Shown: piece after piece, positions 1,970 through 40,906 of the stretch
Layout of the letters: every line of letters starts with the position of its first letter
Numbering within the stretch: position 1 is the stretch's first letter
Assembly: GCA_016873715.1 (NCBI GenBank)
Contig: VGWF01000025.1
Location: 1-41,973, forward strand
DNA length: 41,973 bases
Direction: 5' to 3'
From: Lentisphaerota bacterium
GTDB taxonomy: Bacteria; Verrucomicrobiota; Kiritimatiellia; PWTM01
Notes under the pieces: model-generated
What the model saw: only the letters and a program-made list of their open reading frames with translations
Told to the model about the DNA's origin: nothing
Databases searched by the model: none
Program-made: the position numbers and the translations under genes

Positions 1970-2292
1970 CGGCGATATCCTTGACTTTTCCAAGGATTGG
2001 AACCCGCCGCGCCACCGGTTTCCAAGGGTTGGAAGATTTCGGATCCGCCCGTGCACGTCCGCTCGCGATTCCCGTCCCCGCGCTTCGTGTCCCCGCGTGC
2101 CCCCGCGCAACGGGTTGCGGAACGGATGGCTGTCGCGGCCGCCGCTCCGCCGCCGCGCCCACCGGGGGGAGTATTCCAGACCGTCTGTCGTCATTGATCT
2201 TGTCATCCGGACCGGTTGGCATAAGTACTGCGATAGCTTGTGATGGGTTGCTGCAACGGATGGACGGCTGGGAACGAAGTCCGGAGGATGCG
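1970..2292. other. Intergenic region upstream of the PEP-CTERM gene
   Basis: This 323-nt stretch has no convincing gene. It holds a pair of 15-bp palindromes (listed separately), then GC-rich sequence. A relatively AT-rich patch around 2190-2245 contains TTGTCA (2200-2205) and ATAAGT (2221-2226) at 15-bp spacing. That is a weak promoter-like pair ahead of the surface-protein gene. A Shine-Dalgarno GGAGG lies at 2283-2287. Confidence 0.4.
1986..2034. promoter_or_regulatory. Two tandem TTCCAA-N3-TTGGAA palindromes (operator-like or repeat)
   Basis: Copy 1 is TTTTCCAAGGATTGGAA at 1986-2002 and copy 2 is TTTCCAAGGGTTGGAA at 2019-2034. Their centres are 32 bp apart, about three helical turns, so a protein bound to both would sit on one face. 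TTGACT (1981-1986) lies immediately left of copy 1. The arrangement is typical of a dimeric-regulator operator. Equally, it could be a dispersed intergenic palindrome of this genome. A degenerate relative (TTCC-GGACC-TTGGAA) appears near 16728-16742. Confidence 0.45.
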
Positions 2293-8200: not shown

Positions 8201-8940
8201 TGCGCGCGACGATCCGCAACGGCACCTTCTGGTCGCCGACCGCCGGCGACCAGGCCGCGGCCCCGCTGAGCATCATCAAGGACGGACCGGCCAGCCTGAC
8301 GCTGGAAAGCGCCCATACCTACAGCGGGACGACCCGCGTCATGGCCGGCACGCTGGCGCTGACGGGCGGGGCGTCGATCGTGAACAGCTCGATGATCCAG
8401 ATCGACGCCGGCGCGACGTTCAGCGTGACGCAGCGAACCGGTGCGACGATGACGCTGGTCTCGGGGCAGACGCTGAAGGGCGAGGGGACGTACGCCGGCG
8501 GGCTCATCGTCGCCTCCAACGCCACCGTCGCCCCCGGGTCGAGCCCCGGCACGCTCACGACCACCGCCGATGTGGAGTTCCAGTCCGGTTCGACCTTCTC
8601 GGTCGATCTGGTCGGCACGCTCGCCGGCGAGGCCGACAAGCTCGTGATGGCGGGGGCGGGCGACACGCTGACGCTCGGCGGGGCGACGCTGAGCCTCATC
8701 ACGCCCAACGTGCTTCCGGTCTCCTCGTCGTTCGTGATCATCGACGGCTTCAGCAGCATCAGCGGCACGTTCGCGGGCCTGCCGAACGATGGCGACACGG
8801 TGGCGACCGCGAACAACACGTTCGAGATCCAGTACAACGCCAACGACATCACGTTGACGGTCGTTCCCGAGCCGGCGTCGCTCGGCCTGATCGGGGTTGC
8901 CGGACTGTTCGGCTGGCTGGTCCGCCGCCGGCGCTGCTGA
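2293..8940 (+). CDS. Giant PEP-CTERM surface protein with autotransporter-associated beta-strand repeats
   Basis: The product is 2215 residues. ATG 2293 follows GGAGG with 5-nt spacing and begins an N-terminal signal region ending near residue 40 (VGDARAQTGVW). The body is a long repetitive beta-helix-like array rich in Gly, Asn and Thr. Autotransporter-associated repeat units are clear near residues 380 (TKVGSGEMTLLGTNSFSGEV), 1420 (SGPGTTTLTGANSFQGPVYL), 1667 (TGDGALLIRNYSPDHTGALE) and 1994 (KDGPASLTLESAHTYSGTTR). A VAPGSSPGTLTTTADVEF segment near 2080 is typical of the family's C-terminal part. Residues 2191-2215 are a complete PEP-CTERM sorting signal: VPEPAS, a hydrophobic helix, then RRRR. 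There is no autotransporter barrel. The expected fate is export by Sec, cleavage and attachment by an exosortase, which is not in this window, and display at the surface or in the extracellular matrix. Confidence 0.93.
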   Translation: MKSLMLDRGSAPRTCTLLRRPWAGALVVAGLLAAGVGDARAQTGVWAKTDGAYWNDAASWSNSVIPNGVGHWAWLTGNNDIGGGIGGAAIITQNVNVTLGFLIFGDTDRGTASSIRGTNATTSSTLTFDTGDGRMALLSHGSGDLHTLGQPSGRNFNIGNGGDFIDVGIKVTDPQGLYIENFANLTFWGGTTNSRVFDGGGFDVIKTEDALLQFRRTITNVNNFIVRDAYAELILEGDLGMRPDITNIVIGVAPGTLETGALHPIQSQVLTGEGGTKDRTQYPYFNLIGDNNTNSTTKMTNTFNVVLNHGAYRAFSRPLAAAAQQSNWTNYQGVYSGTFTLNGTADESFLWTEAQDTGSFTSSARQVYFTGPLTGTGGFTKVGSGEMTLLGTNSFSGEVNLLRAWDRGRGRYGSIGLRDGGIMTAVAGFNILRDGGIYLDNSAVNIADRINDNAWILNQNYGRLEILGNGLAASSETLGNVTNRSGWMAFELDTHDSTPQAMTLNLARLVRDVGSVVSFHASDVRQGAFATNAGPGMLTVNLADNGASLTRIGGNGGVGAVNRKVVVGVFGGDASDIAALTGTTTDPNGIVANRADEFMTLDGGRLRTLRDDEMVHLGGRVTNTLTITQADAATDANVNIAFRSTQVAVNSSANGVGGALNLIKNRISGDVTWNSLRFGPATNFTGAAANDVGGRTILIDHGSKVTLESGMLLFGRDTRSATGDDLPGGSIYLWRGTLDLDGAANDREAVIHNSGGYTAVIRSTVEAANGLTKSGDNSIYLDKANAIGGTVFVPQSLLLLRDPAALGSATQVVISGSGELRLQLGGSFNPAELVVQPMPYAKGFLRSENYHNQWNGNIRIFHVDETGLTHHDTQFLAGENSQNATLTIAGDIALDGPQAASDIHLIDPTRLTLGTSAGILNLKGSVGDVYSNGVARPFISADATAGMVGGGDITNRVSTENSMLRFRIDGPSLANYGDELAVNIYSPWRATGRLYAEQGTIRYLGDPAAGKGAFWDAQTLSNANFVNALSGFVLGEAGTDNGGSVTFLLTKDGQSLNAERFAIGNNNPTNTLALGLEHFGPQNKTVLVGNSYNDPSPAGDDNRITFDRELRVYSHNGWDSAAGTASVGRVNITQSLRGNGNATLTKIGSGVVNLQGPDTSAYSEANRIYRFVLLGGELVLDRSPGSSANLGMRRTTDDQTAALVLGGGDLTHWGNAAITTELPGSNLLVRAGDSIIRSRTTGPAGTNALFIATATAQTVTRQPGGTVNFERDLSAGGNAGIHFGLTANARIGSWAVISSNGLSGFSWAATDAGTNVRPFTAYSVDTFGSGNHVDVQAPSVFAADTVAASARFNANQGLDLGGFQLDVQQGGLLVTPNVGSTLSIGNGTLTGSGGELILHNYSAAYGFGISANITGALALTHSGPGTTTLTGANSFQGPVYLNGGTLRVDGAARLGNATNSLELRGGVLQFTGTTDLGTRSIVVGGDGGQIRVDAGMTVTNFGRIDSETNYLDIARVNLGQGDYIKSGLGTQVWAGAVADGGVVISNWIQGAIDIREGVVKVDRRFLTNEVFGTSRSYFDGTVIRSGAALVINSQTNAGNATPDIREWLTLEQGATLAILDRDPNFQGRRWNAPVNVLGDATVFVGAEDFSLHESAGYLEGPGSLIKTGDGALLIRNYSPDHTGALEVRDGTIDMFTTGPYTHPNASAIRIGSATNVDFGTLMFRIRPEIENLAKETVVPQNITVLGESADTRLGFFRSDHNDSVRFTGGIDLTGFNTNAGAAVREFQLWRGDDAVGQRTAEGGDTFDERLFVWLEGGITGGDKRIRTVTELAGNQDKGTQDPPELNVHTVYTLSGTNTGWTGTLEVGNRNGTAAGVQGPDFDKEHYVRFGRNDGAATLAISSNNIVVLRHDAHLQAFGSQVTIGTLMTDGKADNVTTDYYGNDPSTNSFIENAGTIAGSFRIVQQTNSILRATIRNGTFWSPTAGDQAAAPLSIIKDGPASLTLESAHTYSGTTRVMAGTLALTGGASIVNSSMIQIDAGATFSVTQRTGATMTLVSGQTLKGEGTYAGGLIVASNATVAPGSSPGTLTTTADVEFQSGSTFSVDLVGTLAGEADKLVMAGAGDTLTLGGATLSLITPNVLPVSSSFVIIDGFSSISGTFAGLPNDGDTVATANNTFEIQYNANDITLTVVPEPASLGLIGVAGLFGWLVRRRRC
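8863..8937 (+). other. PEP-CTERM sorting signal (C-terminus of the surface protein)
   Basis: The last 25 codons encode VPEPASLGLIGVAGLF, then GWLV and an Arg cluster with a terminal Cys. This matches the tripartite PEP-CTERM signal: a PEP motif, a transmembrane helix and a basic tail. Exosortases recognise this signal. Confidence 0.93.
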
Positions 8941-9285: not shown

Positions 9286-12200
9286 TCACCGCCGGTGCAC
9301 GCGGACGCGGAAGAAGCGCGACGTCGGGGACGCGGACTGCGGGCGCCAGCTTTCCATCCACAGCCCGCCGGGGAGAAGGGCGCCGGGCGCGCGGTCCGCC
9401 GCATCGAGCTCCGTCCAGCCCGCGAGGTCGCCGGACCATTCGGGCACGCAGACGGCGTCGTCCGCCGTGAGCCGGCGATCGAAGAGGATCTCCAGCGCGC
9501 CCTCCGTCCGCGCGATCCAGATCTGCCCGTCCGGCATCGCGTGATCGAGCAGGTCGGGGCGGCCGTTCCCGTCGAGGTCCGCGCGCGGGTCGCCGGAGAA
9601 CCGCTGCGAATCCGTCCCGCCCGGCGTTCCGTTGGTCGCCGCGCTGACGCGCCAGCTCCCCGGGTCGCCGGGGTTGCCGGGTCCTTCGACGCGCGTCAGG
9701 CTGTGCCCGCTGCCGTCCGCATCGACGGGCCAGGGCAGGGCGTCGTCGAAGGTGAAGGACTGGATCACCGCGGTGCCTCCGCCCTCGGCCGGGCCGGCGA
9801 GCGCCAGCGTCTCGCCCGCGTTGTCGAGGCCGCCGGTGTAGACCCCCGCGACCGGCAGCCCGGTCCCGTACGCGGCCGTGAACGCCGCCAGGTTCCTCAC
9901 GAGGATCCGCCGCGCGCCGGCGCCGAGGAACTCGCCGGCGGCGAACGCGAAGGCGATGCCGTCGGTGAACGCGACGCCGGAGAGGTCGACGACGTCGCCG
10001 CCCGGATTCCAGAGCTCGATGAACTCGGTGTCCTCCGACGTCCCCGCCGGGTTGTACATGATCTCCGAGATCACGACGTTCGCGGCGGTCGGCCGCACGC
10101 CGGGCACGAACGCGGCCTCGGTCAGCGCGCTCCACTCGCCCCCGGCGGCGCGGGCGCGGGCGCGGACGGTCATCGGGTGGGTCAAGGCGACCGGCCCCGC
10201 GTAGGGCGTGCCGTGCGGAAGGCCGGTGATCGCCTCGCGTGGGTCGCTGCCGTCGGTGGTCACGTGGATCGTGCCGGTCGGCGCGGTGATCGTCAGGGTC
10301 GAGCCGTTCGTCACGAGGCCGCCGAACACCGAGAACGACGGCGCCTCGGCGGCCGGGAAGAGGCCCGCGGCGCGCAGTTCGGTCACGATCGCGAAGCTGT
10401 TGGTCTCCTCGAACAGGCTCGGCAGGTAGGTGTCGGCCACGGACTGCACGGTCGGAAGCCAGTCGGCCTCGCGGGTGTACTCGCGCTTGAGGGGGACGCC
10501 GGGGCGGCTCTCGGTGTTGCCGTAGGGCGTCTCGTCGGCGGTGTCGCCCCAGCGCGCGCTCTCGGCGACGATCGGCTTGTCGAGGATCGCCGCCAGCGCG
10601 TTCCACCGCGCGCGGCAGGCCTCGAGCCCCAGCGCGCCGCCGTTGCGCAGGTGCCGGTGGACGCGGTCCGCGAAGAGCATCCTGAACTCGGCGTTCTGCC
10701 GCAGCGCCTGGAAGAGCGCGGACGGCGTGCCGGCGTGGTTCGAGGCGGTCCGGTTGATGGCGTGGTTGTCGAGGGCGATCTCCTGGTCCCACACGAGGAA
10801 CCGCCACTTCGCGCCGGGGGCGACGCGGCTGCGGACCGCGTACCAGTTGTGGTGCGGCCAGTCCTCGCAGTCGGCGAAGAAGTGCAGGATCACGTAGTCG
10901 GCGAGGCTGACGATGTCGACCTGGTCCGCGAACGCCGCGTAGGCCTCCGGCGTCGCGAGCCCGGCGGTCGCCATCGCCTGGACCGCGTCCCACGCGGCGC
11001 GCGTGCCGGCCTTCAGCTCGTTGAAGTCGGCGATCACGTCGTAGTCGGCGGCGAGGCCGCCGAAGTGGTCCGCGCAGAACCGCTCGTCGATGCGCTCGGT
11101 CAGGTTGTAGACGCCCCAGTAGAGGCCGTTGACGAACAGGTGCACGAACGAGCCGGCGCCGGCGGCGTGGCCCATGGCGCGGTGCGACTCCTTCATCCAC
11201 ACGTCGCGGAAGCCGACGGAGTCGTCCGGGCGGTAGCGCGCGGGATCCCACGACACGAGCCCCCAGCCGTCGGTGAAGAAGGGGCGCAGCACGAGCCGGT
11301 CGAAGGCCGTCACGCCGCTGCCGGGGAAGAGATCGTACTCGAGCTGCGACGCCCCGTACTCGCCGCGCATCGCGATGCGGAAGCCGTGCTTCTGGAGCCG
11401 GTAGGGCCGCCGGCTGGAGTTGCCGTGGATGCGGATCCCCGCGTTGAGGTGGAAGTGGTTCGTCACGCCGCCCGCCCACGGCATGTACTCGACGGCGCAG
11501 GGCTTCTCCCATGCGTCGCCGGTGGACCGCGGGTGCGAGTAGATGCCCGCGGAGGCGCCGAGGAACGCGTCGGGGTCGAGCGTGACGGCCATCACCGGCA
11601 GGCCCCGCAGCGCATCGGCCACGCCGAAGCCCGGAAGCGTCGCCGACGTGACGTTCGGGTCCATCGCGTAGTCCGAGGGCACGGTGCCGTTGCCGGCGCC
11701 GTCGTAGGAATCGACCTCGCTGTCGGTGCCCCACGTCGCGGGCCAGCCCGGCGGCGCGGCGGGCTGCTGCGCGACCGTGTCGGGGAAGAGGTACGTCAGC
11801 GTGTCGATGTCCGGCGGGATCCAGCCGGCGCGGAAGGCGCAGGCGCGGAGCACGGTCGTGCCGGAGACGGGCACCGGGCCGGAGTACGGGATGCCGGTGG
11901 TGGGCGTCGGCTCGCTGCCGTCGAGCGTGTAGCGGATCTGCGCGCCCGGGGTCGCGCAGGTGATCGTGACGGCGAAGCTGTTGCTCTTCGCGCCGCGGTC
12001 GACGTCGAAGTGGGTGTCCGCCACCGTGCCCGCGTAGCCCGGCGCGTTGGCGGCGCCGGGCGTCGGGCTCCGGAAGAAGCGCACCGGCGAGGCCGCCGGG
12101 CCGCGGGTCTCGAGGACCGGCAGGAGGAAGAAGTCCGCGTCGGCCGCCGCCGCGTTGAGCCCCTGCACGGCCAGCACGTTCGTGCCCGTCGCGAGCAGTC

Positions 12201-13656
12201 CGGGGGGCACCTCGAACGAGTCGTAGGCGAGGGCCTCGTCCCCGGTGCGCGCGGCGGTGGCGGCGGAATCCCACGCCGGCGCGGCCGGCGCGTTGGCGCG
12301 CGCGACCTCGGCGCCGTTGAGCCAGGCGACGAAGCCGTCGTCGTGGCGGATGCGCAGCGTGCAGCCGGTGACCGGCGCGCCGCCGGCGAGGAGGAACGGG
12401 AGGCGCGCGTAGAGCGACGCGTTCCGCCCGAGCATCGCGTCCGCCGTGTCCGTGCGGATGTCGGCGAGCAGCGGCGCGGGGCTGATCCGCAGGGCGTTGA
12501 GGAACACCCCGTAGCTCGTGCTGTCGCTCTCGCGGCGCGCCTCGATGCGCAGGATCCCGGCGGCGTCCGCGGCGACCGTGCAGGCGATGCGGTACTGCCC
12601 GTTGCTGGCGGGCGGCACCGAGCCGTTGAAGGTGTAGTCGTCGGCGACCAGCTCGCTGTTGACCTGCCAGTCGGAGACGCGCGACCCCGTGCTGCCGGAA
12701 TCGAAGGACCAGATCTCGACCTGGTAGCCGCGGCCGGGCACGAGGCCCGCGACCTCGACGTCGAGGCCGTTGTTCCCGGTGCTGTCGGTCGCGAAGACGA
12801 AGTCGCGCAGCAGCTCCGCCTGCGTGAAGGCGGCGGTATTGGTCGGCGTCGTCCGGAGCCGGTCGTCGAGCGCCACGCCGCCGACGGGGGCGAGGGTGAC
12901 GCTGCAGCCGCCGAAGACCCGCGTCACCGCCCCCGACTGCGGGGCGGTCGCGCTGCCGGCGCTGTTGAGGAGGAAGGCCGAGAAGCCGGGGGCCGTCACG
13001 CCGGTGGTGCGGTCGTTGAAGTCGACGCTCAGCACCGCGCCGGCCGAGCCGCTCGCATCGTGGCCCAGCGCGGTCCGGCCCTCGGCCCACCCCGCGTCAG
13101 CGAAGCCCGGCTGGATCCACGAGGCTCCGAGCGCGCCGTTGGTCGGCACGTGCCAGAGCACGGGGGCGCCCCCGGGGACCGGCTCGGCGATGTCGACGGG
13201 GCCCGACGGACCGGCGGAGATGTTGACGCGCTGGCGGGGGTAGGCGGGCGCGAACTGCGAGGCGACGGTGACGCCGTCGGGGGCGACGAGCGCGAGGTAC
13301 TCGCCCATCTCGTCGAGCTTGAAGTTCGCGTGGAGCGGCAGGCCGGCGACGGCGCGGTTCTTGTCCGACGCGAACACGACCAGGTAGCCGCCCGCCGGCA
13401 GGTTCGTGGAGGGGAAGGTCCACTTCGCGAGGGCGAGGGCGTTGTCCGTCAGGTGCCACCCCCCGAGGTCGACCGGGGCCGTGCCGGGGTTGTGGATCTC
13501 GATCCAGTCCGGGTGCGCCCCGTCCTCGTCCGCGAGCCCGCCGTCGTTGACCGCGAGGAACTCGCTGATCCCGAGACCCTGCCCGCGCGCCCCGCCGGCG
13601 GCGAGGAGAAGGGCGGCCCAACCGGCGATGACCCGGGTGAATCGCATCGCCTCCAT
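9286..13656 (-). CDS. Secreted lamin-tail (LTD) and CotH-kinase domain protein
   Basis: The product is 1456 residues with a signal peptide ending near residue 25 (VIAGWAALLLAAGGARG). The order of parts is as follows. An N-terminal lamin-tail domain starts at ~25 (GISEFLAVNDGG, DWIEIHNPG). Beta-rich linker regions follow, then a chitobiase-like segment at ~573 (IRYTLDGSEPTPTTG). A CotH kinase-like domain spans ~740-960, with GIRIHGNSSRRPYRLQKHGF, LFVNGLYWGVYNLTERIDE and WRFLVWDQEIALDN. A second chitobiase-like segment is at ~1129 (IHVTTDGSDPREAITG) and a second lamin-tail domain at ~1192 (NVVISEIMYNPAGTSED). This layout is common in large secreted proteins of PVC bacteria. CotH-family proteins are atypical protein kinases, but the substrate here is unknown. 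The start could also be 13647; a GGAGG only 2 nt before that ATG makes 13656 somewhat better. It is divergent from the HzsA-like gene. Confidence 0.9.
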   Translation of the reverse strand: MEAMRFTRVIAGWAALLLAAGGARGQGLGISEFLAVNDGGLADEDGAHPDWIEIHNPGTAPVDLGGWHLTDNALALAKWTFPSTNLPAGGYLVVFASDKNRAVAGLPLHANFKLDEMGEYLALVAPDGVTVASQFAPAYPRQRVNISAGPSGPVDIAEPVPGGAPVLWHVPTNGALGASWIQPGFADAGWAEGRTALGHDASGSAGAVLSVDFNDRTTGVTAPGFSAFLLNSAGSATAPQSGAVTRVFGGCSVTLAPVGGVALDDRLRTTPTNTAAFTQAELLRDFVFATDSTGNNGLDVEVAGLVPGRGYQVEIWSFDSGSTGSRVSDWQVNSELVADDYTFNGSVPPASNGQYRIACTVAADAAGILRIEARRESDSTSYGVFLNALRISPAPLLADIRTDTADAMLGRNASLYARLPFLLAGGAPVTGCTLRIRHDDGFVAWLNGAEVARANAPAAPAWDSAATAARTGDEALAYDSFEVPPGLLATGTNVLAVQGLNAAAADADFFLLPVLETRGPAASPVRFFRSPTPGAANAPGYAGTVADTHFDVDRGAKSNSFAVTITCATPGAQIRYTLDGSEPTPTTGIPYSGPVPVSGTTVLRACAFRAGWIPPDIDTLTYLFPDTVAQQPAAPPGWPATWGTDSEVDSYDGAGNGTVPSDYAMDPNVTSATLPGFGVADALRGLPVMAVTLDPDAFLGASAGIYSHPRSTGDAWEKPCAVEYMPWAGGVTNHFHLNAGIRIHGNSSRRPYRLQKHGFRIAMRGEYGASQLEYDLFPGSGVTAFDRLVLRPFFTDGWGLVSWDPARYRPDDSVGFRDVWMKESHRAMGHAAGAGSFVHLFVNGLYWGVYNLTERIDERFCADHFGGLAADYDVIADFNELKAGTRAAWDAVQAMATAGLATPEAYAAFADQVDIVSLADYVILHFFADCEDWPHHNWYAVRSRVAPGAKWRFLVWDQEIALDNHAINRTASNHAGTPSALFQALRQNAEFRMLFADRVHRHLRNGGALGLEACRARWNALAAILDKPIVAESARWGDTADETPYGNTESRPGVPLKREYTREADWLPTVQSVADTYLPSLFEETNSFAIVTELRAAGLFPAAEAPSFSVFGGLVTNGSTLTITAPTGTIHVTTDGSDPREAITGLPHGTPYAGPVALTHPMTVRARARAAGGEWSALTEAAFVPGVRPTAANVVISEIMYNPAGTSEDTEFIELWNPGGDVVDLSGVAFTDGIAFAFAAGEFLGAGARRILVRNLAAFTAAYGTGLPVAGVYTGGLDNAGETLALAGPAEGGGTAVIQSFTFDDALPWPVDADGSGHSLTRVEGPGNPGDPGSWRVSAATNGTPGGTDSQRFSGDPRADLDGNGRPDLLDHAMPDGQIWIARTEGALEILFDRRLTADDAVCVPEWSGDLAGWTELDAADRAPGALLPGGLWMESWRPQSASPTSRFFRVRVHRR

Positions 13657-13700
13657 TCTACCGCCCCGCGCCCGCGGATTCGAGCCGGCCGACAACAGCA

Positions 13701-13730
13701 TTGTGCGGAGGGGGTCCGGCCTGCTAGCGT
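13701..13730 (+). promoter_or_regulatory. Candidate promoter for the HzsA-like gene
   Basis: TTGTGC (13701-13706) and TAGCGT (13725-13730) are separated by 18 bp, 21 nt before the ATG. The match to the -10 consensus is poor (TA...T only). GCTAGCGTGGG here resembles GCTAGGGTGGG upstream of the radical SAM gene at 19937. The call is weak. Confidence 0.25.
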
Positions 13731-13751: not shown

Positions 13752-16652
13752 ATGAGGATCTTCCATGCAGCGGGCGGGATCGGGCTGGCGCTGGCCGTCG
13801 TCGCGGCGGCGGCGGACGAGCCGTTCCAGCCCTACGACAGCGGTCCCGTCGCCGGCGACGGTCCGGCGCGCGAGATCCGCGTCAACGTCTCGGGCGTGCG
13901 GGTTCTCCGCCTGGTCGCATCGTGCGAGAAGGGCACGGCCAACTGCAACATCTGGGGCGAGCCCGTGCTGGTCGCCCGCGACGGCACGGCCACCCCGCTC
14001 ACGAGCCTGCGCCCGGTCTCCGCCCGCGTCGGGTGGGGGCGGCTGATCGTCAACTCCAACTGGATGGGCCGCCCGCTGCGCGTCGGCGACCGCACCTTCA
14101 CGAACGGGTTCTGGGTTCACGCGGACAGCGAACTGCGGTTCAATCTCGACGGGAAGTACGAGACCTTCCGCGCGTTCGCCGGCGAGGATGCCGACCGCGC
14201 CAACGGCGTCGCCCGATTCCAGGTCCTCGCCGCCGATCCGCCGCGTCCCCTGGCGCCCGCGGAGATGCTGGCCGCGGAGCTCGACAGCCAGTTCGCGACG
14301 CTGGCCGAGGACCTCCGGCAGCGCGCGCGGTTCGAGAAGCTCGCCGCCGAGACCTTCCATCCCTCCGCGCTGGTCCGGGCGGACGACCGCGACCCGGCCG
14401 ACATCGTCCTGCGCCGCACCGAGGCCCTGCGCGCCGACCTGCGGCTCGCGCCGTTCGAGGCGCCGCTCGCCCGGCTCCGCGCGCAGGTCGAGGCCACGCC
14501 GGTCACCAACGCCGCCGCGCGCCGCGCGCTGTTCGACGAGGTCTGCCGCCTGCGCCGGCGGATCGCGTTCGCGAACCCGCTGCTCGACTTCGACCGGCTC
14601 CTCTTCGTCAAGCGCCACCGCGCGATCTTCAACCACATGTGCGACCAGTTCTACGGCATCACCGCGCGGCCGGGCGGGGGGCTGTACATCCTGGAGAAGC
14701 CGTTCGGCGACGCGCCGGAGGTCCGCGACGTCCTCGCCCGGTCGGTCGTCCGGAAGGGCCGGCTGGAGGGGCAGCGCCTCGTGGGCGGCAACGGCGCGAC
14801 GGCGGACCTCCGCTGGGACGGCGTCCAGTACCTCAGCGGCGACGAGACCGAGGGCGGCGCGTTCCTCTCGCCCGCGCTCTCCTACGACGCCCGGCAGATC
14901 CTCTTCGCCTACGTCGAATGCACCGGCGACCGCGACCAGAAGATGCACACCGACCCGTCGCGCGGCCACTGGGACCCGGGGCGCTGCTTCCACGTCTTCA
15001 AGGTCAACGTCGACGGCTCCGGCCTCGAGCAGCTCACCGACGGCACCTGGAACGAGTTCGACCCCTGCTGGCTGCCGAACGGACTCGTCGCGTTCATCAG
15101 CGAGCGTCGCGGCGGCTACCTGCGCTGCGGCCGCGCCTGCCCGCTCTACAACCTCTACGACATGAACCCCGACGGCAGCGGCATCAACCTGCTGAGCTTC
15201 CACGACAGCAACGAGTGGAACCCGGCCGTGACGCACGACGGCCGCATCGTCTGGACCCGGTGGGACTACGTCGACCGCCACGGCTGCGTTGCGCACGTGC
15301 CGTGGATCACCCGCCTCGACGGCACCGATCCGCGGGCGCTGCACGGCAACTTCGCGGTCCGCGCCCAGCGCGCCGACATGGAGCTCAACGTCCGCCCGAT
15401 CCCCGGCTCGCCGCGCTACGTCGCCACCGCCGCGCCGCACCACGGGCAGGCCTTCGGCTCGCTCGTCATCCTCGATCCGCGCGTCGAGGACGACGACGCC
15501 ATGGGGCCCGTCCGCCGGCTCACGCCGGACGTCGGCTTCCCGGAGAGCCAGGGCGGATGCGAGGTCTACGGCACGCCGTGGCCGCTCAGCGAGACGTACC
15601 ACCTCTGCGTCTACGACGCCGCGATGCTCGGCGGCCGCCGCGGGGAGGGGGACGGGAACTACGGCATCTACCTCGTCGACGCGTTCGGGAACCGGGAACT
15701 GATCCATCGCGACCCCGCGATCGGCTGCTCCAGCCCCATTCCGCTGCGGCCGACGACGCGTCCGCCGGTCACGGTCGGCCCGCAGTGGAATCCCGGCGCG
15801 CCGCCGGTGAAGCCCGGCGACCCCGGCAGCGGCGCCATGGCCGTGCTCAACGTCTACGACACCCAGCGGCCCTGGCCGCCGGAGATGAAGGCGAAGGAGA
15901 TCCGCATCTACCAGCTCCTGCCCTGCTCGGTGCCCTCCGGCGGCCTCGCGCCGCACCAGACCGGCAAGCGCATCGCCGAGGCCGGCGATTCCATCGTTCC
16001 CGCGCGCTGGGTGCTCGGCACCGTGCCGATCGAGGCCGACGGCAGCGCGCACTTCAAGGTGCCGGCGAACCGCGAGCTGTTCTTCCAGGTCGTCGACGAG
16101 CGCGGCCTGGCGATCCAGTCCATGCGCTCCGGCACGGCGATCCGCGACGGCGAGACCCTGCTCTGCCAGGGCTGCCACGAGCCGAAGCCCCGGGCGGCGG
16201 AGCGCGGCACGATGCCGATGGCGATGCGGCGCGCGCCGTCGGAGCCGAAGCCCGACGTCGACGGCTCCAACCCGTTCAGCTACCCGCGTCTCGTCCAGCC
16301 CGTGCTCGACCGCCACTGCGTCGCCTGCCACGACCGCAATCCCGGCAAGGCGCCGAACCTCAAGCGCGAGCCCGTCCAGGGCAAGTTCTTCGCCTCCTAC
16401 AACAGCCTCGTGCGCCACGGCTTCACGGGCTACGGCGACCACTACCGCACCGTGCCCGGCAAGTTCGGCGCCCGCGCCTCGAAGCTCTTCGCGATGCTGG
16501 AGAAGGGCCACCACGACGTGCAGCTCCCGTCGGAGGACTTCCACCGGCTCACGCTGTGGCTCGACACCGTCTCCATGTTCTACGGCGTCTTCGAGCAGGA
16601 GGGCGGCGAAGCCCAGCTCCGCGGCGAACTCGCCGCGCCGACGCTCGAATAG
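13752..16652 (+). CDS. NPCBM plus hydrazine synthase alpha-like propeller protein with two c-type haem sites
   Basis: The product is 966 residues with a signal peptide (MRIFHAAGG... ending near residue 23). Residues ~28-165 look like an NPCBM domain, with GFWVHADSELRFNLDGKYET and FRAFAGEDAD. From ~280 onward the protein resembles the hydrazine synthase alpha family (HZS_alpha): FVKRHRAIFNHMCDQFYG, ALSYDARQILFAYVE, then TolB-like propeller blades such as VNVDGSGLEQLTDGTWNEFD and MNPDGSGINLLSFHDSNEWN. Two CXXCH haem-attachment motifs lie in the C-terminal part: CQGCH (Cys805-His809) and CVACH (Cys856-His860). The protein is therefore an exported, probably periplasmic, di-haem cytochrome-like protein. 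No HzsB or HzsC homologue is nearby, so hydrazine synthesis is not implied. Wide non-anammox distribution of this fold in PVC bacteria is the better context. Its substrate is unknown. Confidence 0.88.
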   Translation: MRIFHAAGGIGLALAVVAAAADEPFQPYDSGPVAGDGPAREIRVNVSGVRVLRLVASCEKGTANCNIWGEPVLVARDGTATPLTSLRPVSARVGWGRLIVNSNWMGRPLRVGDRTFTNGFWVHADSELRFNLDGKYETFRAFAGEDADRANGVARFQVLAADPPRPLAPAEMLAAELDSQFATLAEDLRQRARFEKLAAETFHPSALVRADDRDPADIVLRRTEALRADLRLAPFEAPLARLRAQVEATPVTNAAARRALFDEVCRLRRRIAFANPLLDFDRLLFVKRHRAIFNHMCDQFYGITARPGGGLYILEKPFGDAPEVRDVLARSVVRKGRLEGQRLVGGNGATADLRWDGVQYLSGDETEGGAFLSPALSYDARQILFAYVECTGDRDQKMHTDPSRGHWDPGRCFHVFKVNVDGSGLEQLTDGTWNEFDPCWLPNGLVAFISERRGGYLRCGRACPLYNLYDMNPDGSGINLLSFHDSNEWNPAVTHDGRIVWTRWDYVDRHGCVAHVPWITRLDGTDPRALHGNFAVRAQRADMELNVRPIPGSPRYVATAAPHHGQAFGSLVILDPRVEDDDAMGPVRRLTPDVGFPESQGGCEVYGTPWPLSETYHLCVYDAAMLGGRRGEGDGNYGIYLVDAFGNRELIHRDPAIGCSSPIPLRPTTRPPVTVGPQWNPGAPPVKPGDPGSGAMAVLNVYDTQRPWPPEMKAKEIRIYQLLPCSVPSGGLAPHQTGKRIAEAGDSIVPARWVLGTVPIEADGSAHFKVPANRELFFQVVDERGLAIQSMRSGTAIRDGETLLCQGCHEPKPRAAERGTMPMAMRRAPSEPKPDVDGSNPFSYPRLVQPVLDRHCVACHDRNPGKAPNLKREPVQGKFFASYNSLVRHGFTGYGDHYRTVPGKFGARASKLFAMLEKGHHDVQLPSEDFHRLTLWLDTVSMFYGVFEQEGGEAQLRGELAAPTLE

Positions 16653-16996
16653 CCGGCGCGGGCGCGCGGGAGTTCCAGGCTCGCGGCAGGTCGTCCTCCC
16701 ATCCTTGGATCCCGTGGGGCTCGGCACTTCCGGACCTTGGAACCTGCGCGCCTCGGAACCTCCGGACGGAATCCTGCGTCCATAGGGCTACCGGGATCCA
16801 TCGAACGGAAGGCCCGCACGGGCGTCTTCGTCATCGCAGCACCGGACCGGAGATGCGCCCCGCCTTCCTCCGGCCGGGGCTTTCGGCTTGTTTGCGCGGC
16901 TGCCGTCGCGGTATTATCGGTTGACGCCGAATCGAGCGAGTGGGGTTCGGGATGCCGGCCGCGGCGACGGCGATGAGGATGTCGGGAGTCTCGTCG
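16653..16996. other. Intergenic region with a promoter and degenerate repeat-like sequence
   Basis: No gene is supported. The left half contains repeated short GGAACC/CTTGGAA/CTTGGAT words (16700-16770), including the degenerate palindrome TTCC-GGACC-TTGGAA, and looks like remnants of a dispersed intergenic repeat. The right half holds the promoter candidate at 16888-16917. Confidence 0.4.
16888..16917 (+). promoter_or_regulatory. Candidate sigma-70-type promoter for the alpha-oxoamine synthase gene
   Basis: TTGTTT (16888-16893) and TATTAT (16912-16917) are spaced by 18 bp. TATTAT stands out in very GC-rich surroundings and matches TATAAT at 5 of 6 positions. Transcription would begin near 16924, giving a ~70-nt leader to ATG 16997. 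Confidence 0.45.
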
Positions 16997-18238
16997 ATGC
17001 TGCCCAGAAACCGGTTTCAGGCCCTGGCCGAGATCGTGCGGCGCGGGAAGGACGGAGGCTACTATCCCTTCTTCCGCGCGCTGTCCGCGTCCTCGGGGCC
17101 GGAGGTCGAGGTGGACGGGCGCCGGCTGGTGATGGCCGGATCGAACGACTACCTCGGGCTGGCGCACGACCCGCGGGTCGTCGAGGCCGCGACCGACGCC
17201 GCCCGCCGCTGGGGCGTCGGCCCCGGGGGCTCCCGGTTCCTGTGCGGCAACACGACCCTTCACGAGACCCTGGAGGAGCGGCTGGCCGCCTTCGTCGGGA
17301 AGCGGCGCGCGCTCGTCCACACCACCGGCTTCGTGACGAACCTCGGCGCGCTCCACGCGCTGGCCGGTCCCGGCGACCTGCTGCTGTGCGACGAGGAGAG
17401 CCACGCGAGCGTCGTGGACGGCTGCCTGTCGGCGCGCGGGCGCCTGTCGACCTTCCGCCACAACGACGCCGCGTCCGCGCGCGCGAAGCTGGAGGCGGCG
17501 CGGTCGAAGGATCCCGAGGCGTGCTTCCTGATCACGGAGGGCGTCTTCAGCATGTCCGGCGACGTCGCCGCGCTGCCGGACCTCGTGGCGCTCCGCCGCG
17601 AACACCCGGCGGCCGTCCTGTATCTCGACGACGCGCACGGCCTGGGCGTCATGGGCCCCGGCGGCCGCGGCACCGCCGCGCATTTCGGCGCGACGGGCGA
17701 CGTCGACTTCATCATGGGCACCTTCAGCAAGGCCCTGGCCTCGGTCGGCGGTTTCCTCGCGTCGGACGACGAGGAGGCGATGACCTTCCTCCGCCACCAG
17801 TCGCGTCCGCTGATCTTCTCCGCGGCCCTTCCGGCGTGCTGCGTCGCGGCGGCGCTGGCCGGGCTCGACATCCTCGAGCGCGAGCCGGAACGCGTCGAAT
17901 GCCTGCACCGGAACGCGCGCAGGGCGTGGGACGGCTACCGGCGGATCGGCCTCGACGCGCGCTGGTCGGGCTCGCCCATCCTGTCCATCCGCATCGGGTC
18001 GGAGATGGCCGCCTACCGGTTCGCCCTGGAGTTGTTCGAGCGGGGCGTCTTCGCGCTCCCGGCGGTGTTCCCCGCCGTGCCGCGCGGGGAGGCGATCATC
18101 CGGACCGCCTACATGAGCACGCACGCGCCGGAGCACATCGATCGCGTGCTGGACGTCCTGGAGTCCGTCGCGGACGCGCACGGGTTGCGCGGGGGCCGCG
18201 CCGCCGGCGAGCCCGCCGTGGCGGCGGCCGCGCCGTGA
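16997..18238 (+). CDS. PLP-dependent alpha-oxoamine synthase (BioF/KBL/SPT family)
   Basis: The product is 413 residues from ATG 16997, which has GGGAG 8 nt upstream. GTG 16940, ATG 16952 and ATG 16973 are alternative starts that only add an unconserved N-terminus. Family hallmarks are all present: GSNDYLGLAHDPRV near residue 50, GPGGSRFLCGNTTLHETLEE near 75, FITEGVFSMSGD-type (LITEGVFSMSGD), YLDDAHGLGVMGPGGRG and the PLP lysine in GTFSKALASVGG (Lys245). The enzyme condenses an amino acid with an acyl-CoA or acyl-ACP and loses CO2. Candidates are serine palmitoyltransferase, 8-amino-7-oxononanoate synthase and 2-amino-3-ketobutyrate ligase. No biotin or threonine dehydrogenase genes are adjacent. 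The next gene encodes a GNAT-like acyltransferase of a type seen beside serine palmitoyltransferases, so a sphingolipid role is favoured. This is inference. Confidence 0.9.
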   Translation: MLPRNRFQALAEIVRRGKDGGYYPFFRALSASSGPEVEVDGRRLVMAGSNDYLGLAHDPRVVEAATDAARRWGVGPGGSRFLCGNTTLHETLEERLAAFVGKRRALVHTTGFVTNLGALHALAGPGDLLLCDEESHASVVDGCLSARGRLSTFRHNDAASARAKLEAARSKDPEACFLITEGVFSMSGDVAALPDLVALRREHPAAVLYLDDAHGLGVMGPGGRGTAAHFGATGDVDFIMGTFSKALASVGGFLASDDEEAMTFLRHQSRPLIFSAALPACCVAAALAGLDILEREPERVECLHRNARRAWDGYRRIGLDARWSGSPILSIRIGSEMAAYRFALELFERGVFALPAVFPAVPRGEAIIRTAYMSTHAPEHIDRVLDVLESVADAHGLRGGRAAGEPAVAAAAP

Positions 18239-18290
18239 GCCGCCGCCGCCTGCGGAGCCGGGGCCCCGCGCCGAGGGAAGGGGGAGGCGC

Positions 18291-19466
18291 ATGGCGGCCG
18301 CGACGCTGACCGTGCGGCCGGTCCGCACCGCGCCCGACCGCGAGGCCTTCCTGCGCGTGCCGTGGCGGATCCAGCGCGACGACCCCTGCTGGGTTCCGCC
18401 GCTCCTCGCACGGCAGGCCGCCTTCCTCGATCCGGCGACCGGCCCGTTCTTCGAGAGCGGCGAGGCCGAGCTCCTCCTCGCGTATCGGGGCGGGGAGGCG
18501 GTCGGCCGGATCTCGGCGCACGTCCACCGGCGGCACGACGAACTCCACGGCGGCGGCACCGGCTTCTTCGGCTTCTTCGAATGCGAGCGGGATCCCGCCG
18601 CCGCGGCGGCCCTGGTCCGCGCGGCGACGGACTGGCTCCGCGCGCGCGGCCGCGTGCGCGTGGTCGGGCCGATGAGCTTCGCCATCTACGACGACATCGG
18701 CCTCCTCGTCGACGGTTTCGATTCGCTGCCCGCGTTCCTGCTGACGCACAACCCGCCGTGGTACGCCGGCCTGCTCGAGGCGGAGGGGTTCCGCAAGGCG
18801 GTGGACTGGCACGCCTTGCGCGTGACGAACCGCGACGTGGACGCCGGGGCCATGGGCGCCGAGTCGGCGGCGATCATGGCCCGCGCCGGCCTGACGCTTC
18901 GCATGCCGAGTCCGGCGGAGGTGGCGCGCCGGTCGGACGAGATCCTCGGGCTCTTCAACGATGCGTGGGCCGGGAACTGGGGCCACATCCCCTTCACGCC
19001 GGGCGAGTTCGCCGCCGTGCTGCGCGACCTCGGTCCGCTGCTGCGCGCCGACCTGATCCGCATCGTGACCGACGGCGACCGGATCGTCGCCTTCACGATC
19101 ACGATCCCGGATCTGAACCCTCTCGTGCGCCGGTTCGACGGCCGGCTCCCGTGGTGGAACGCGCTGCGCTTCTACGCCGCGGCGCGGCTGGCCCCGCTGG
19201 AGCGCGTGAAGACCGTGCTGCTGGGCGTCGCGCGCGAGGTGCGCAACCGCCGCCTGCACGACGCGATGATCCTCGACACCTACGCCCACCTGGTGCGGAC
19301 GCAGCCGCGGCTGGTCCAGTGCGACTGCTCGCTCATCTGCGAACAGCTCGCCCCGTTCATCCGGTCGCTGAAGCGGTACGGCGCGCGCGTCTACAAGACC
19401 TACCGGATCTTCGAGAAGGAGATCGGCCCCGTCACGGCTTGCGGCGGATCGACACGCGGAACGTGA
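18291..19466 (+). CDS. GNAT-like N-acyltransferase, YghO-type; possible ceramide synthase
   Basis: The product is 391 residues. ATG 18291 is preceded by GGGGGAGG, an excellent ribosome binding site. The N-terminal half has RVPWRIQRDDPCWVPPLLAR, PFFESGEAELLLAYRGGEAV and GRISAHVHRRHDE, a GNAT core strand-turn. It then carries GPMSFAIYDDIGLLVDGFD and HNPPWYAGLLEAEGFRKAVD, typical of ~390-residue YghO-like proteins. The gene starts 52 nt after the alpha-oxoamine synthase and is probably cotranscribed. Bacterial ceramide synthases that acylate the sphinganine product of SPT are GNAT-like, so this protein could do that step. The assignment rests on context and remembered family resemblance. Its last 35 nt overlap the opposite-strand gene 19432-19785. 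Confidence 0.8.
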   Translation: MAAATLTVRPVRTAPDREAFLRVPWRIQRDDPCWVPPLLARQAAFLDPATGPFFESGEAELLLAYRGGEAVGRISAHVHRRHDELHGGGTGFFGFFECERDPAAAAALVRAATDWLRARGRVRVVGPMSFAIYDDIGLLVDGFDSLPAFLLTHNPPWYAGLLEAEGFRKAVDWHALRVTNRDVDAGAMGAESAAIMARAGLTLRMPSPAEVARRSDEILGLFNDAWAGNWGHIPFTPGEFAAVLRDLGPLLRADLIRIVTDGDRIVAFTITIPDLNPLVRRFDGRLPWWNALRFYAAARLAPLERVKTVLLGVAREVRNRRLHDAMILDTYAHLVRTQPRLVQCDCSLICEQLAPFIRSLKRYGARVYKTYRIFEKEIGPVTACGGSTRGT

Positions 19467-19785
19467 GCCCGTGCCGCGTGGTCAGCACGCCGGCGATGCG
19501 GCCGTCGGCCTCGAGGCGTCCTTCGAAGCGGTGGCCGGAGTGGTGGCGGCCCGTGACGCGGTCGCCCTCGACGCGCCCGTCGAGGTGATAGGTCCACCGG
19601 CCGCCGAGCGGGGTATCGACGCGCGCGAGGCCGAAGACCTCGGCGCCCTGCTGCACGATGTCGACCGAGAAGCGGGCGATGAGGTAGCGTCCGCCCCAGG
19701 TCCCCGCCAGCTGCGGGGGCGGTGCGTCCGCGGCCGCCGCCGCGACCGCCAGTCCCACCGCCAGGATGGCCAGGATGAATCTCAT
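19432..19785 (-). CDS. Small secreted protein of unknown function
   Basis: The product is 117 residues. A clear signal peptide (MRFILAILAVGLAVAAAAADA) is followed by a ~95-residue domain of alternating beta strands: AGTWGGRYLIARFSVDIVQQ, GRWTYHLDGRVEGDRVTG and FEGRLEADGRIAGVLTTRHG. The pattern suggests a small beta-barrel or lipocalin-like fold. No specific family was recognised. The upstream Shine-Dalgarno is weak. The 3' end overlaps the convergent GNAT gene by 35 nt. It could be missed by gene callers, but the signal peptide and coherent beta pattern support it. Confidence 0.65.
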   Translation of the reverse strand: MRFILAILAVGLAVAAAAADAPPPQLAGTWGGRYLIARFSVDIVQQGAEVFGLARVDTPLGGRWTYHLDGRVEGDRVTGRHHSGHRFEGRLEADGRIAGVLTTRHGLTFRVSIRRKP

Positions 19786-19936
19786 CGGGCTCGTTCCGCC
19801 GGCCCGCGGCCGGCCCCGCGACGATTCCAGAGCGGGGCGGCGAAGTCAAACCGGGGGGCGCAGGGCGGGTGTGCCGGGCGTCCCCGTCCGTTTTCCGACT
19901 TCGTCGGCTGCCCGAACTGCGCTAGGGTGGGCGGGC

Positions 19937-20950
19937 ATGCAGTTCGGCAACATGGTGAAGATGGGCGCGGCCGCGGTCCTCCACGGGCTGGGCGGGGCGC
20001 GCCGTCCCGTCAACGTGATGCTCGCGGTCACCAACCACTGCAACGGCGCGTGCCGCTACTGCCGCATCCCGGAGCGCGCCGGCCGCGAGATGACGACGGA
20101 GGAGATCCTCCGGCTGGTCGACCAGATGGCGGACGCCGGCACGGTGCGGCTCGGGCTGTGGGGCGGCGAGCCGCTGCTCCGGCGGGACATCGGGGCCATC
20201 GTCGACCGCGCCCGCGCCCGGGGCCTGTACGTGACGATGGACAGCAACGGGCTGCTGTGGCGCGAGCGGTGCGGCGACCTGGGCGGCCTCCACCACGTCA
20301 CGTTCGCCTACGACGGGGACGCGCCCGCCCACGAGGCGAACCGCGGGCCCGGCACGCACGCCCGCGTGAGCGAGGCGATCGACTTGGCGGTGGGGACGCC
20401 GGGGCTGAAAGTCTGGACGCTGACCGTGCTGACCCGGAACAACCTCGGCGACGTCGACCACGTGATCGACCGCGCCGCGCGCCTCGGGATCCACTGCGCC
20501 TTCCAGGTCCTCCACCACAACGGCGAACTCGGCTGCAACCACGATGCGCTGCTGCCGTCCGACGGGGAGTACCGCGCGGTGTTCCGGCACCTGCTCGACC
20601 GCAAGCTGCGCGGCGCGCCGATCGCCTCGTCGGTGCGCTACCTCCGCTACATCGCCGCCTGGCCCGACTTCCGGCAGGCGACGCTGCCCGGGCGGCACCT
20701 CGGCGCGCCGTGCCGCGCCGGCGCGCTCTACTGCAACGTCGACGCCAACGGCGACGTCTACGCCTGCAGCCTCCGGGTGGGGGAGGCGGCGGCGAAGAAC
20801 GCGGTGGATGCGGGATTCCGCGCCGCCTTCGACGCGATTCCGCCGTCGCCCTGCGGCTCGTGCTCCGCGACGTGCTTCACGGAGTACAACTACCTCTACT
20901 CCCTGGACCCGCGCTGCATCCTGCAGTGGATGCGCACCACGCGCCGGTGA
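19937..20950 (+). CDS. Radical SAM protein with C-terminal SPASM/twitch-like cysteines
   Basis: The product is 337 residues. ATG 19937 follows a GGGTGGGCGGG stretch. The 4Fe-4S/SAM motif is CNGACRYC (Cys35, 39, 42), preceded by NVMLAVTNH, and GLWGGEPLLR is the SAM-contact strand. C-terminal cysteines lie in PCRAGALYCNVDANGDVYAC and CGSCSATC, the spacing expected for an auxiliary-cluster (SPASM/twitch) region. The middle segment RGAPIASSVRYLRY matches RGAPIANSSRFLRD in the radical SAM protein at 30333-31415, so the two are paralogues. It stands apart from the minus-strand cluster; its stop is only 6 nt from the convergent membrane-protein gene. The reaction is unknown. These proteins act on peptides, glycans or lipids, and the family relation suggests it belongs to the same pathway as the cluster. 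Confidence 0.9.
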   Translation: MQFGNMVKMGAAAVLHGLGGARRPVNVMLAVTNHCNGACRYCRIPERAGREMTTEEILRLVDQMADAGTVRLGLWGGEPLLRRDIGAIVDRARARGLYVTMDSNGLLWRERCGDLGGLHHVTFAYDGDAPAHEANRGPGTHARVSEAIDLAVGTPGLKVWTLTVLTRNNLGDVDHVIDRAARLGIHCAFQVLHHNGELGCNHDALLPSDGEYRAVFRHLLDRKLRGAPIASSVRYLRYIAAWPDFRQATLPGRHLGAPCRAGALYCNVDANGDVYACSLRVGEAAAKNAVDAGFRAAFDAIPPSPCGSCSATCFTEYNYLYSLDPRCILQWMRTTRR

Positions 20951-20956
20951 GCGGCG

Positions 20957-22687
20957 TCAGGGCGCCGCCGGCGGCCTCACGCGCCAGGCGACGGTGCGGT
21001 CGTCGGCGCCGATCCGCGTGAACTCCGAGTCCAGCCGCGCGACGAGCGGCGCATCGCGGGCGGCCTCGTCCGGGGACGTGTGCAGGACGACGAGCCCGAT
21101 GCCCTGTTCGCGGACCTGCCGCAGGGCGCCGGTCCACGCGTCGGCGTCGGCCGCCGGGCCGGCGGGGTCGTTGAAGAGCCGCACGAGCACGCCGCGCAGC
21201 CCGGGCGGATCGTCGGGGCACTGGTCGAACCACACCAGCCGCTGGCCGTGCTCGGACTGGAAGTAGGTGTAGGCCCCCCAGCGCCTGCGCGACTCGGGCC
21301 CGGCGGCGGGAGGCAGGTCGAGCACGGGAAGATCCTCCTCCTCGAAGGCGGGCAGCGCGCGGACCGTCGCGGGGAGGTCGATCGCGGCGTCGAGATGGTT
21401 CCGCGGGCGGGTGCGGATGCCCGGCGGCGAGACGACGAGCCCCTCCGCCGCGACGAGCGCGACGATCGCGGCCGCCGCCGCGAGGACGGCGCGCGGGGGG
21501 CGGGAGGCGACGGCGCGCGCGACGAGGAGGCCGCCGCACGCCGCCATGAAGGGCAGCAGCCGGTTCAGCTTGACGACGTTCTCGAAGCCCGGGACCAGGT
21601 GGTCGAGCAGCGCCGCGGGCAGCGGGATGCGGAAGCCCGGCGGGCCGAAGGAGCGTCCGAGGGCCAGTACGGCGAGGACCGCGGTCCCGGCAAGCAGGAT
21701 GGCGGAGTCGCGCGAGCAGACCGCGCGGCCGGGCGTTCGGGACGACCGGCGCCGGCGCAGCAGGGTTGCGACGGCCCAGGCCACCGCGGCGAGAAAGACG
21801 GTGCCGAGGTAGGGCTTCTCCTGCCAGAGCCCCTCGCTCGGGTTGAAGAGGTCGAGGACCGACTCCGCCGGGATCCCCGCCGCGATCCCGACGTCCGCCG
21901 TGCCCGGGTTGAGGTTCAGGAGGTTCGCGGCCCCGGCCGAGCCGGGCGCGTAGAAGCGGACGAGCACCGGCAGGAGCCCGAGCAGCACGAGGCCCGCCGC
22001 CAGCGCGCGCCGCACGCCGGGCGCCCGCCACGGGAGGTCCAGCCGCTCCACCGCGTGGGCGAGGATGAAGGGCCACGCGGCCGCGAGGAAGAGCGCGAGG
22101 TAGGGCGAGGAGAAGACGGCGAGGCAGGGGAGGGCGACGGCGGCGACGAAGGCCGTCGCGCGCCGGCGCCCCTCGACGAGGTCGACGATCGCGCCGTAGG
22201 CGAAGCCGGCGGTCCAGAGCATCACGTTCTCGATCTGGCCCCGCAGGACGAAGGACTGCACGCAGGGGTGAAACACGACCAGCGCCGCGTAGGCCGCCGC
22301 CGCGGCCGGGGGGTAGCGCAGCTTGCGGGCCAGCCGGTGGAAGGCCCACGCGGACAGGAACAGGTTGAGCATGAAGACGAGGTTGAAGGCCGCCCGCGCG
22401 GGGAGGACGCGGCACAGCGCGTGGCCCGCGACGAGCGAAGGCACCGCGAGCGGCAGGGCCTCGCCGCCCTCCGGATAGGCCCACAGCGTGAGGAACGCGG
22501 GGGGCTTGCCCGGCGCGGGGTCGAGGTACATCCCGAGGCGCCGCATCTCGACGGCCTTCGAGCTGGCGGTCCGGTGCGACAGCGACAGCGTGAACGGCCG
22601 CAGGGAGCAGGGCGCATAGGCCAGCAGGGTCAGCGCGACGAAGGCGGCGGCCGCCGCGAGGGAGGCTCCGTGGCGCCGCAGGTTCAT
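20957..22687 (-). CDS. Polytopic membrane protein, glycosyltransferase-like (GT-C type topology)
   Basis: The product is 576 residues, with ATG 22687 overlapping the TolC stop as ATGA. About 10-12 hydrophobic helices fill residues ~10-410. They include AAAAFVALTLLAYAPCSLRP near the N-terminus, AAVALPCLAVFSSPYLALFL, AGLVLLGLLPVLVRFY and AILLAGTAVLAVLALG. A C-terminal ~150-residue soluble domain follows (FEEEDLPVLDLPPAAGPESR, WFDQCPDDPPGLRGVLVRLF). This layout, with a large first loop and a C-terminal periplasmic domain, resembles lipid-linked-sugar glycosyltransferases or YfhO-type proteins, but no catalytic motif was identified with confidence. It is the last gene of the efflux operon. It might modify the exported product or be part of a glycan pathway. 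Confidence 0.85.
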   Translation of the reverse strand: MNLRRHGASLAAAAAFVALTLLAYAPCSLRPFTLSLSHRTASSKAVEMRRLGMYLDPAPGKPPAFLTLWAYPEGGEALPLAVPSLVAGHALCRVLPARAAFNLVFMLNLFLSAWAFHRLARKLRYPPAAAAAYAALVVFHPCVQSFVLRGQIENVMLWTAGFAYGAIVDLVEGRRRATAFVAAVALPCLAVFSSPYLALFLAAAWPFILAHAVERLDLPWRAPGVRRALAAGLVLLGLLPVLVRFYAPGSAGAANLLNLNPGTADVGIAAGIPAESVLDLFNPSEGLWQEKPYLGTVFLAAVAWAVATLLRRRRSSRTPGRAVCSRDSAILLAGTAVLAVLALGRSFGPPGFRIPLPAALLDHLVPGFENVVKLNRLLPFMAACGGLLVARAVASRPPRAVLAAAAAIVALVAAEGLVVSPPGIRTRPRNHLDAAIDLPATVRALPAFEEEDLPVLDLPPAAGPESRRRWGAYTYFQSEHGQRLVWFDQCPDDPPGLRGVLVRLFNDPAGPAADADAWTGALRQVREQGIGLVVLHTSPDEAARDAPLVARLDSEFTRIGADDRTVAWRVRPPAAP

Positions 22688-25402: not shown

Positions 25403-25406
25403 CGCG

Positions 25407-26093
<687 letters not shown>

Positions 26094-27296: not shown

Positions 27297-27382
27297 GGCC
27301 ACCTCCTGCCGCCCCGGCCCGGGCGGGGCCGGGGGTCGGTTCCCCCCTACCAATTCGGGGGCACAGGGACAAGCCGATTGTC
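27297..27382 (-). promoter_or_regulatory. Junction between radical SAM block and export operon, with strong hairpin
   Basis: Bases 27312-27334 form a perfect 9-bp stem, CCCCGGCCC and GGGCCGGGG, around a 5-nt loop. There is no T-tract, so it is not a classical intrinsic terminator. A second short inverted pair (CCCCC...GGGGG around TACCAATTC, ~27342-27360) lies to its right. The larger stem lies between the last radical SAM stop and the adaptor ribosome binding site. It could attenuate read-through or protect mRNA ends. Confidence 0.45.
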
Positions 27383-34871: not shown

Positions 34872-34932
34872 GCGCCGGGGGTTCCATAGCACCTGTCCGG
34901 CCCCCACGGCAAGGCCAACCGCGTCGGCGGCC

Positions 34933-37738: not shown

Positions 37739-40906
<3,168 letters not shown>

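Follow-up and report, generated by a model that had tools for sequence, protein, structure and literature searches.

The window, a 41,973-nucleotide stretch from a Lentisphaerota bacterium, encodes a di-haem protein of the HZS_alpha family that, judged from its sequence, is not a hydrazine synthase. We take it to be, with a probability of roughly 0.55, an exported di-haem c-type protein that acts in the oxidation of sugars or polyols, as an oxidoreductase or an electron carrier. Sugar-binding-type domains occur in its relatives, and some of the relatives lie in sugar-breakdown clusters, so redox work in sugar metabolism is likelier than nitrogen chemistry.

Domain architecture and fold

From the N to the C terminus, the protein comprises a probable signal peptide, an NPCBM domain, a helical linker, a β-propeller, the HZS_alpha domain carrying haem 1, and a cytochrome c domain carrying haem 2. 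The features are as follows.

13752..16652, plus strand: HZS_alpha-family di-haem protein, 966 aa (ORF, motif and Pfam analysis)
13752..13817, plus strand: probable Sec signal peptide, residues 1–22, MRIFHAAGGIGLALAVVAAAAD, judged by eye; pLDDT below 50 at residues 1–21
13818..14246, plus strand: circularly permuted NPCBM domain, residues 23–165, canonical C-terminal part first (profile match of the rotated order)
14256..14570, plus strand: helical linker domain, residues 169–273 (secondary structure of the model)
14595..15743, plus strand: β-propeller of TolB-like fold, residues ~282–664 (model, Foldseek, NCBIfam TolB)
15891..16181, plus strand: HZS_alpha middle domain, residues 714–810 (Pfam)
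16164..16178, plus strand: haem c motif 1, CQGCH (805–809), equivalent of HzsA haem alpha-I, with Pro813 at the Tyr591 position
16272..16586, plus strand: C-terminal cytochrome c domain, residues ~841–945 (alignment to HzsA and model)
16317..16331, plus strand: haem c motif 2, CVACH (856–860), equivalent of HzsA haem alpha-II
16509..16514, plus strand: His920–His921, candidate distal ligand of haem 2, at most one residue from HzsA His772 in the alignment

The reading frame is open over 13752–16652, and its GC content at the three codon positions (0.71/0.49/0.97) is of coding type. The HZS_alpha profile (PF18582) scores 78.4 bits against a cut-off of 26.6 (E 6.4e-22), which places the protein in the family. 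The NPCBM profile (PF08305) matches residues 82–161 in the natural order of the sequence (E 5.4e-20). Both CXXCH sites are conserved in all 66 close homologues, and H920 is present in the same 66 and in 23 of the 27 HZS_alpha family members of the genome itself. An earlier note on this DNA had proposed the reading frame, the two domains and the two haem motifs; the Pfam search and motif scan bear all of them out, with both profile matches significant and the motifs retained across the homologues.

The AlphaFold2 model, computed from 66 sequences, has a pLDDT of 87.7 and a pTM of 0.81. In a Foldseek search against the PDB, HzsA of K. stuttgartiensis (5c2v, chain A) ranks first with an E value of 1.1e-26; the alignment covers 826 columns, and the TM score, normalised by target length, is 0.61. 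TolB comes second (E 8e-10), so the TolB-like blades described in the note are weak by sequence (NCBIfam TolB, E 1.1e-4) but clear by structure. HzsA is also the top PDB match in phmmer (4.9e-8) and aligns with the window protein in hhalign at 99.6% (E 4e-24) over residues 370–941. The predicted fold shares with HzsA (5c2v chain A; NF052339) the propeller, the HZS_alpha middle domain and the C-terminal cytochrome c domain, along with the two CXXCH motifs, and the resemblance to the anammox alpha subunit that the note had expected holds at the level of the fold.

Circular permutation of the NPCBM domain

In natural order, the sequence matches only positions 4–83 of the NPCBM profile, with 79.2 bits. 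When residues 22–79 are placed after residues 80–165, a single match spans positions 4–134 of 137 and scores 85.3 bits; the score exceeds the PF08305 cut-off, and coverage of the profile is full once the order is rotated. In addition, residues 27–57 align to the C-terminal part of the NPCBM structure 2vmh. These alignments show that the domain is circularly permuted, and because of the permutation it covers about residues 23–165 instead of 82–161. Every profile segment of the CBM51-type NPCBM domain (2vmg/2vmh) is present after rotation; the window domain differs in its permutation and in being fused to a cytochrome rather than to a glycosidase. In the other NPCBM-bearing homologues, the best stretch covers only the first 82–87 profile positions, as would be expected if the permutation is common to them.

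Accessory domains among the close homologues

A relative is encoded in 433 stretches of the genome collection, and the best 80 were retained. They derive from Verrucomicrobiota, Kiritimatiellota, Lentisphaerota and Planctomycetota, apart from a few whose bins bear other labels. Among these best 80 of 433, an NPCBM domain is found in 17, an F5/8-type-C domain in 32 and both in none; 49 thus carry one of the two, and 31 carry neither, some of which could be truncated gene models. The 17 NPCBM-bearing homologues led us to reject the idea of a fusion unique to the window protein.

In the tree, the window protein forms a clade with the homologues at L065, which has NPCBM, and L066–L068, which have no such domain (support 100). 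This clade is nested in a well-supported, NPCBM-rich clade of 18 rows. The three nearest-kin proteins, at about 70–72% identity, are without NPCBM, and the domain appears to be dispensable. A recent gain of NPCBM was also rejected: the more parsimonious account is that the nearest kin lost it, and the 18-row NPCBM clade has several losses. Mapping the domain label onto the whole tree requires 16 changes, which implies that sugar-type domains have often been gained and lost.

Conserved residues and proposed mechanism

All 66 close homologues share a large number of His, Cys, Asp, Glu, Trp and Arg residues that lie outside the haem motifs, including H295, C297, H399, H414, H484, E488, H515, H563 and H564. 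R503, W504, D/E505, H563 and M791 are conserved family-wide. Together, the invariant propeller residues and the family-wide residues suggest a real site near haem 1.

The scheme that we infer extends from export and glycan binding to haem ligation, the substrate, the direction of electron flow and the partner. The protein would be exported and its two haems attached in the periplasm; a cytochrome c assembly protein is present in the genome. The permuted NPCBM domain would anchor the protein on a glycan, and the propeller and the haem-1 domain would together make up the oxidation site for a sugar or polyol. Alternatively, a partner dehydrogenase may supply the electrons; the exported FAD oxidoreductase whose gene lies next to some relatives is one candidate. 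Haem 1 would then pass the electrons to haem 2, from which a soluble carrier would accept them.

The same architecture could belong to a non-catalytic electron-transfer or scaffold protein, whose haems would do no more than relay electrons and whose propeller and NPCBM domain would position it at the envelope. The combination of a propeller and a C-terminal cytochrome c domain in which the second His is invariant fits electron transfer, as does the exchangeable and seemingly dispensable character of the accessory domains. The residues invariant outside the haem motifs seem to be more than a scaffold would need, and we consider this alternative possible but somewhat doubtful.

A sugar/polyol cluster beside relatives

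Neighbour clustering recovered a recurring set of genes beside the relatives, consisting of a RhaT-like symporter, an FGGY kinase of xylulokinase/fuculokinase-like type, URO-D, an SDR, DeoC (the deoxyribose-phosphate aldolase, scoring above its equivalog cut-off), a Zn alcohol dehydrogenase, a GlpD-like dehydrogenase, an SGL protein and a DeoR/AraC regulator. With a component counted at 50% identity or above, at least two components occur at 12 of 80 homologue loci (best 80 of 433) and at 0 of 17 random regions of the same genomes. RhaT lies near 10 of these best 80 loci, where its genome frequency would predict 0.33; the corresponding Poisson figure treats loci as independent, and several of them are close relatives. 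The cluster loci span at least three phyla (Verrucomicrobiota, Kiritimatiellota and Planctomycetota) and occur in both the NPCBM and the F5/8C branches. Broad Pfam counts of neighbours show a modest contrast with controls (URO-D 7 versus at most 1, sulfatase 6 versus at most 1, SDR 6 versus 3), and the specific cluster test is the sharper of the two.

An exported-type FAD oxidoreductase gene lies directly downstream of the homologue in L065, L070 and L083, where it occupies 10148-12499 in L083, and a 74%-identical copy is present in the genome of the window, on contig C134. An alpha-L-fucosidase gene adjoins L068. The two RhaT genes of the genome match the Pfam family at E ~1e-51, more strongly than they match the cluster type (1e-23 to 1e-26).

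Several observations count against a role in sugar metabolism. The window copy has no sugar cluster around it, its neighbours being a CotH/LTD protein and an aminotransferase, and the cluster is found at none of the fetched HZS_alpha loci of the genome. At 68 of the 80 close homologues (best 80 of 433), fewer than two components lie near enough to be counted, in part owing to contig ends. Ligands other than sugars are also possible for F5/8C and NPCBM domains. The note had proposed redox chemistry on a polysaccharide or at the cell surface; the link to carbohydrate is supported indirectly by the accessory domains and clusters (49 and 12 of these 80, respectively), with the window copy itself outside a cluster. 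Since small sugars or polyols are what the clusters take up and phosphorylate, the substrate may be a mono- or oligosaccharide and not a polysaccharide.

Paralogues in the genome and class

The genome contains 27 HZS_alpha loci, so the description of the gene as lying alone applies to its neighbours in the window and not to the genome. Across the same class, the domain occurs in 41 of 146 genomes, with up to 31 copies per genome. The 27 proteins of the genome include six with F5/8C, four with LamG-type, five with FGE-sulfatase, two with NPCBM, one with GH28 and one with rhamnosidase N-terminal domains; their ORF starts were chosen mechanically, and some N-terminal extensions may be too long. 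The FGE-sulfatase (formylglycine-generating type) and GH28 fusions, among loci L009–L030, could name substrates.

The protein might instead process sulfated or otherwise modified glycans, for instance together with sulfatases and their activation, rather than oxidise sugars as such. Sulfatases adjoin several homologues (6 of 125 neighbours), and the five FGE-sulfatase fusions point the same way. The window protein has neither such a domain nor a sulfatase neighbour, and the clearest conserved cluster is one of sugar or polyol import, phosphorylation and aldol cleavage, which makes the idea improbable.

Distinction from hydrazine synthase

Against the HzsA equivalog NF052339 (NCBIfam), the window protein scores 38.7 bits, where the cut-off is 800. 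In a survey of 392 genomes from the phylum of one homologue, 27 genomes exceed the cut-off, with best matches per genome of 1351–1642 bits; the lowest single genuine match, of 1065 bits, is a partial copy, and beyond those 27 genomes the survey found no HzsA match at E 1e-60.

The haem-1 motif of all 12 genuine HzsA sequences inspected reads CHxGSY, with the tyrosine at +4. This residue, Tyr591, is a ligand of haem alpha-I (PMC12607021). The window protein reads CHEPKP, with Pro813 in the Tyr591 column, and a tyrosine within eight residues after the motif occurs in just 3 of 66 close homologues. One of 26 paralogues (contig C41, L012:6743-12733, minus strand) has a tyrosine at +4, the Tyr591 position (CVGCHEKNY), with the GSY motif absent. 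At haem alpha-II, His920/921 lies at most one residue from the column of the distal His772 and is a candidate ligand. For the zinc site of HzsA, Cys303/His587, the alignment of the propellers is too weak to place Cys303, which is conserved not even in all anammox bacteria (PMC12758564).

A profile search of the contigs found no bona fide HzsB or HzsC in the genome; the best HzsB-like match reaches 83 bits against 560 and the best HzsC-like match 35 against 625. The contigs of these sub-threshold matches (C74, C64 and C10) are free of HZS_alpha genes. The protein on C74 (L152:10822-12705), a 628-aa stretch in which a YVTN propeller is fused to a MauG/CCP domain, is HzsB/C-like but far below the cut-off, and was rejected as a partner because no HZS_alpha gene is near. 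Sequences adjoining it are mutL- and xerC-like, as named from their translations. The absence of partners claimed in the note therefore stands for bona fide HzsB/C, with the qualification of this one fused protein on another contig.

The cut-off, Tyr591 and the missing partners led us to reject a divergent anammox protein. A hydrazine-synthase-type enzyme that has diverged and still acts on hydroxylamine, ammonia or NO at haem 1 would have the fold and domain order of HzsA in its favour, as well as a paper in which hzs-like genes are discussed either as a sign of possible novel anammox or as members of a wider enzyme family with other substrates (PMC10732223), but the low score, the proline in place of Tyr591, a residue also reported lost in other homologues (PMC12758564), the lack of linked HzsB/C and the 27 copies in one genome make it highly improbable. 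The note's placement of the protein outside nitrogen metabolism is well supported.

Other genes in the window

The HZS_alpha gene is divergent from a minus-strand gene (9286-13701) for a 1471-aa secreted-type protein with two lamin-tail domains, a CotH kinase domain and chitobiase C-terminal-type repeats. On the plus strand, 16940-20950 encodes in a row an alpha-oxoamine-synthase-like aminotransferase, a 391-aa protein without a Pfam match and a radical SAM protein. MacB/ABC/outer-membrane efflux genes (22684-26093) adjoin an operon-like minus-strand run (26100-35036) of four B12-binding radical SAM proteins, one more radical SAM protein, a GNAT acetyltransferase and an HlyD-type protein. This run and the efflux genes look like a biosynthetic and export cluster, of which the genes at 16940-20950 may be part. 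Further out, 1591-8940 on the plus strand encodes a 2449-aa protein that combines passenger-type repeats with a PEP-CTERM sorting signal, and 37739-40906 on the minus strand a 1055-aa protein in which PQQ-type propeller repeats surround a weak methyltransferase-like match. Two proteins that look similar to the latter lie near homologue L107.

Relation to known systems

Compared with HzsA, the window protein differs in its N-terminal, permuted NPCBM domain, the proline for Tyr591, the score of 39 bits against 800, the many copies per genome and the lack of an HzsB/C operon. Over 600 structural hits to the HZS alpha subunit have been reported, none with another function confirmed experimentally (Hagglund et al. 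2025, PMC12758564), and a wide family with other substrates has been proposed (PMC10732223). Clades I–IV of the non-anammox homologues (PMC12758564) likewise have the HZS_alpha fold, in Planctomycetota and others, and have lost Tyr591. They were selected for a neighbouring beta-gamma gene, which is absent at the window protein, and clade I is said to be without the His772 equivalent, whereas the window family has the invariant H920 at this site.

The planctomycete-specific cytochromes PSCyt1-3 with CBMs (He et al. 2017, PMC5615132) resemble the family in their PVC distribution, many paralogues, NPCBM/F5/8C/LamG fusions and sulfatase neighbours. Their function is given as unknown, their cytochrome domains are other ones, and the passages on them describe no HZS_alpha domain or HzsA-like fold. 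The HZS_alpha family, the loss of Tyr591 (PMC12758564) and CBM-fused PVC cytochromes (PMC5615132) are already known. To our knowledge of the open-access literature, the permuted NPCBM domain, the alternation of NPCBM and F5/8C, the paralogue numbers in the class and the conserved linkage to a sugar cluster are new.

PF18582 matches number dozens per genome here and are therefore not to be taken as anammox markers. Speculatively, and with considerable doubt, the HZS_alpha family may be a widespread group of haem-dependent exported sugar/polyol oxidoreductases of PVC bacteria, amplified to some 30 copies per genome like glycosidases, from which the anammox alpha subunit was recruited by gaining the tyrosine ligand. 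Anammox is defined by the enzyme hydrazine synthase. The linkage of a subfamily to a sugar/polyol cluster in three phyla, together with sugar-type domains on most members, provides a concrete proposal for function and hence a candidate ancestral activity.
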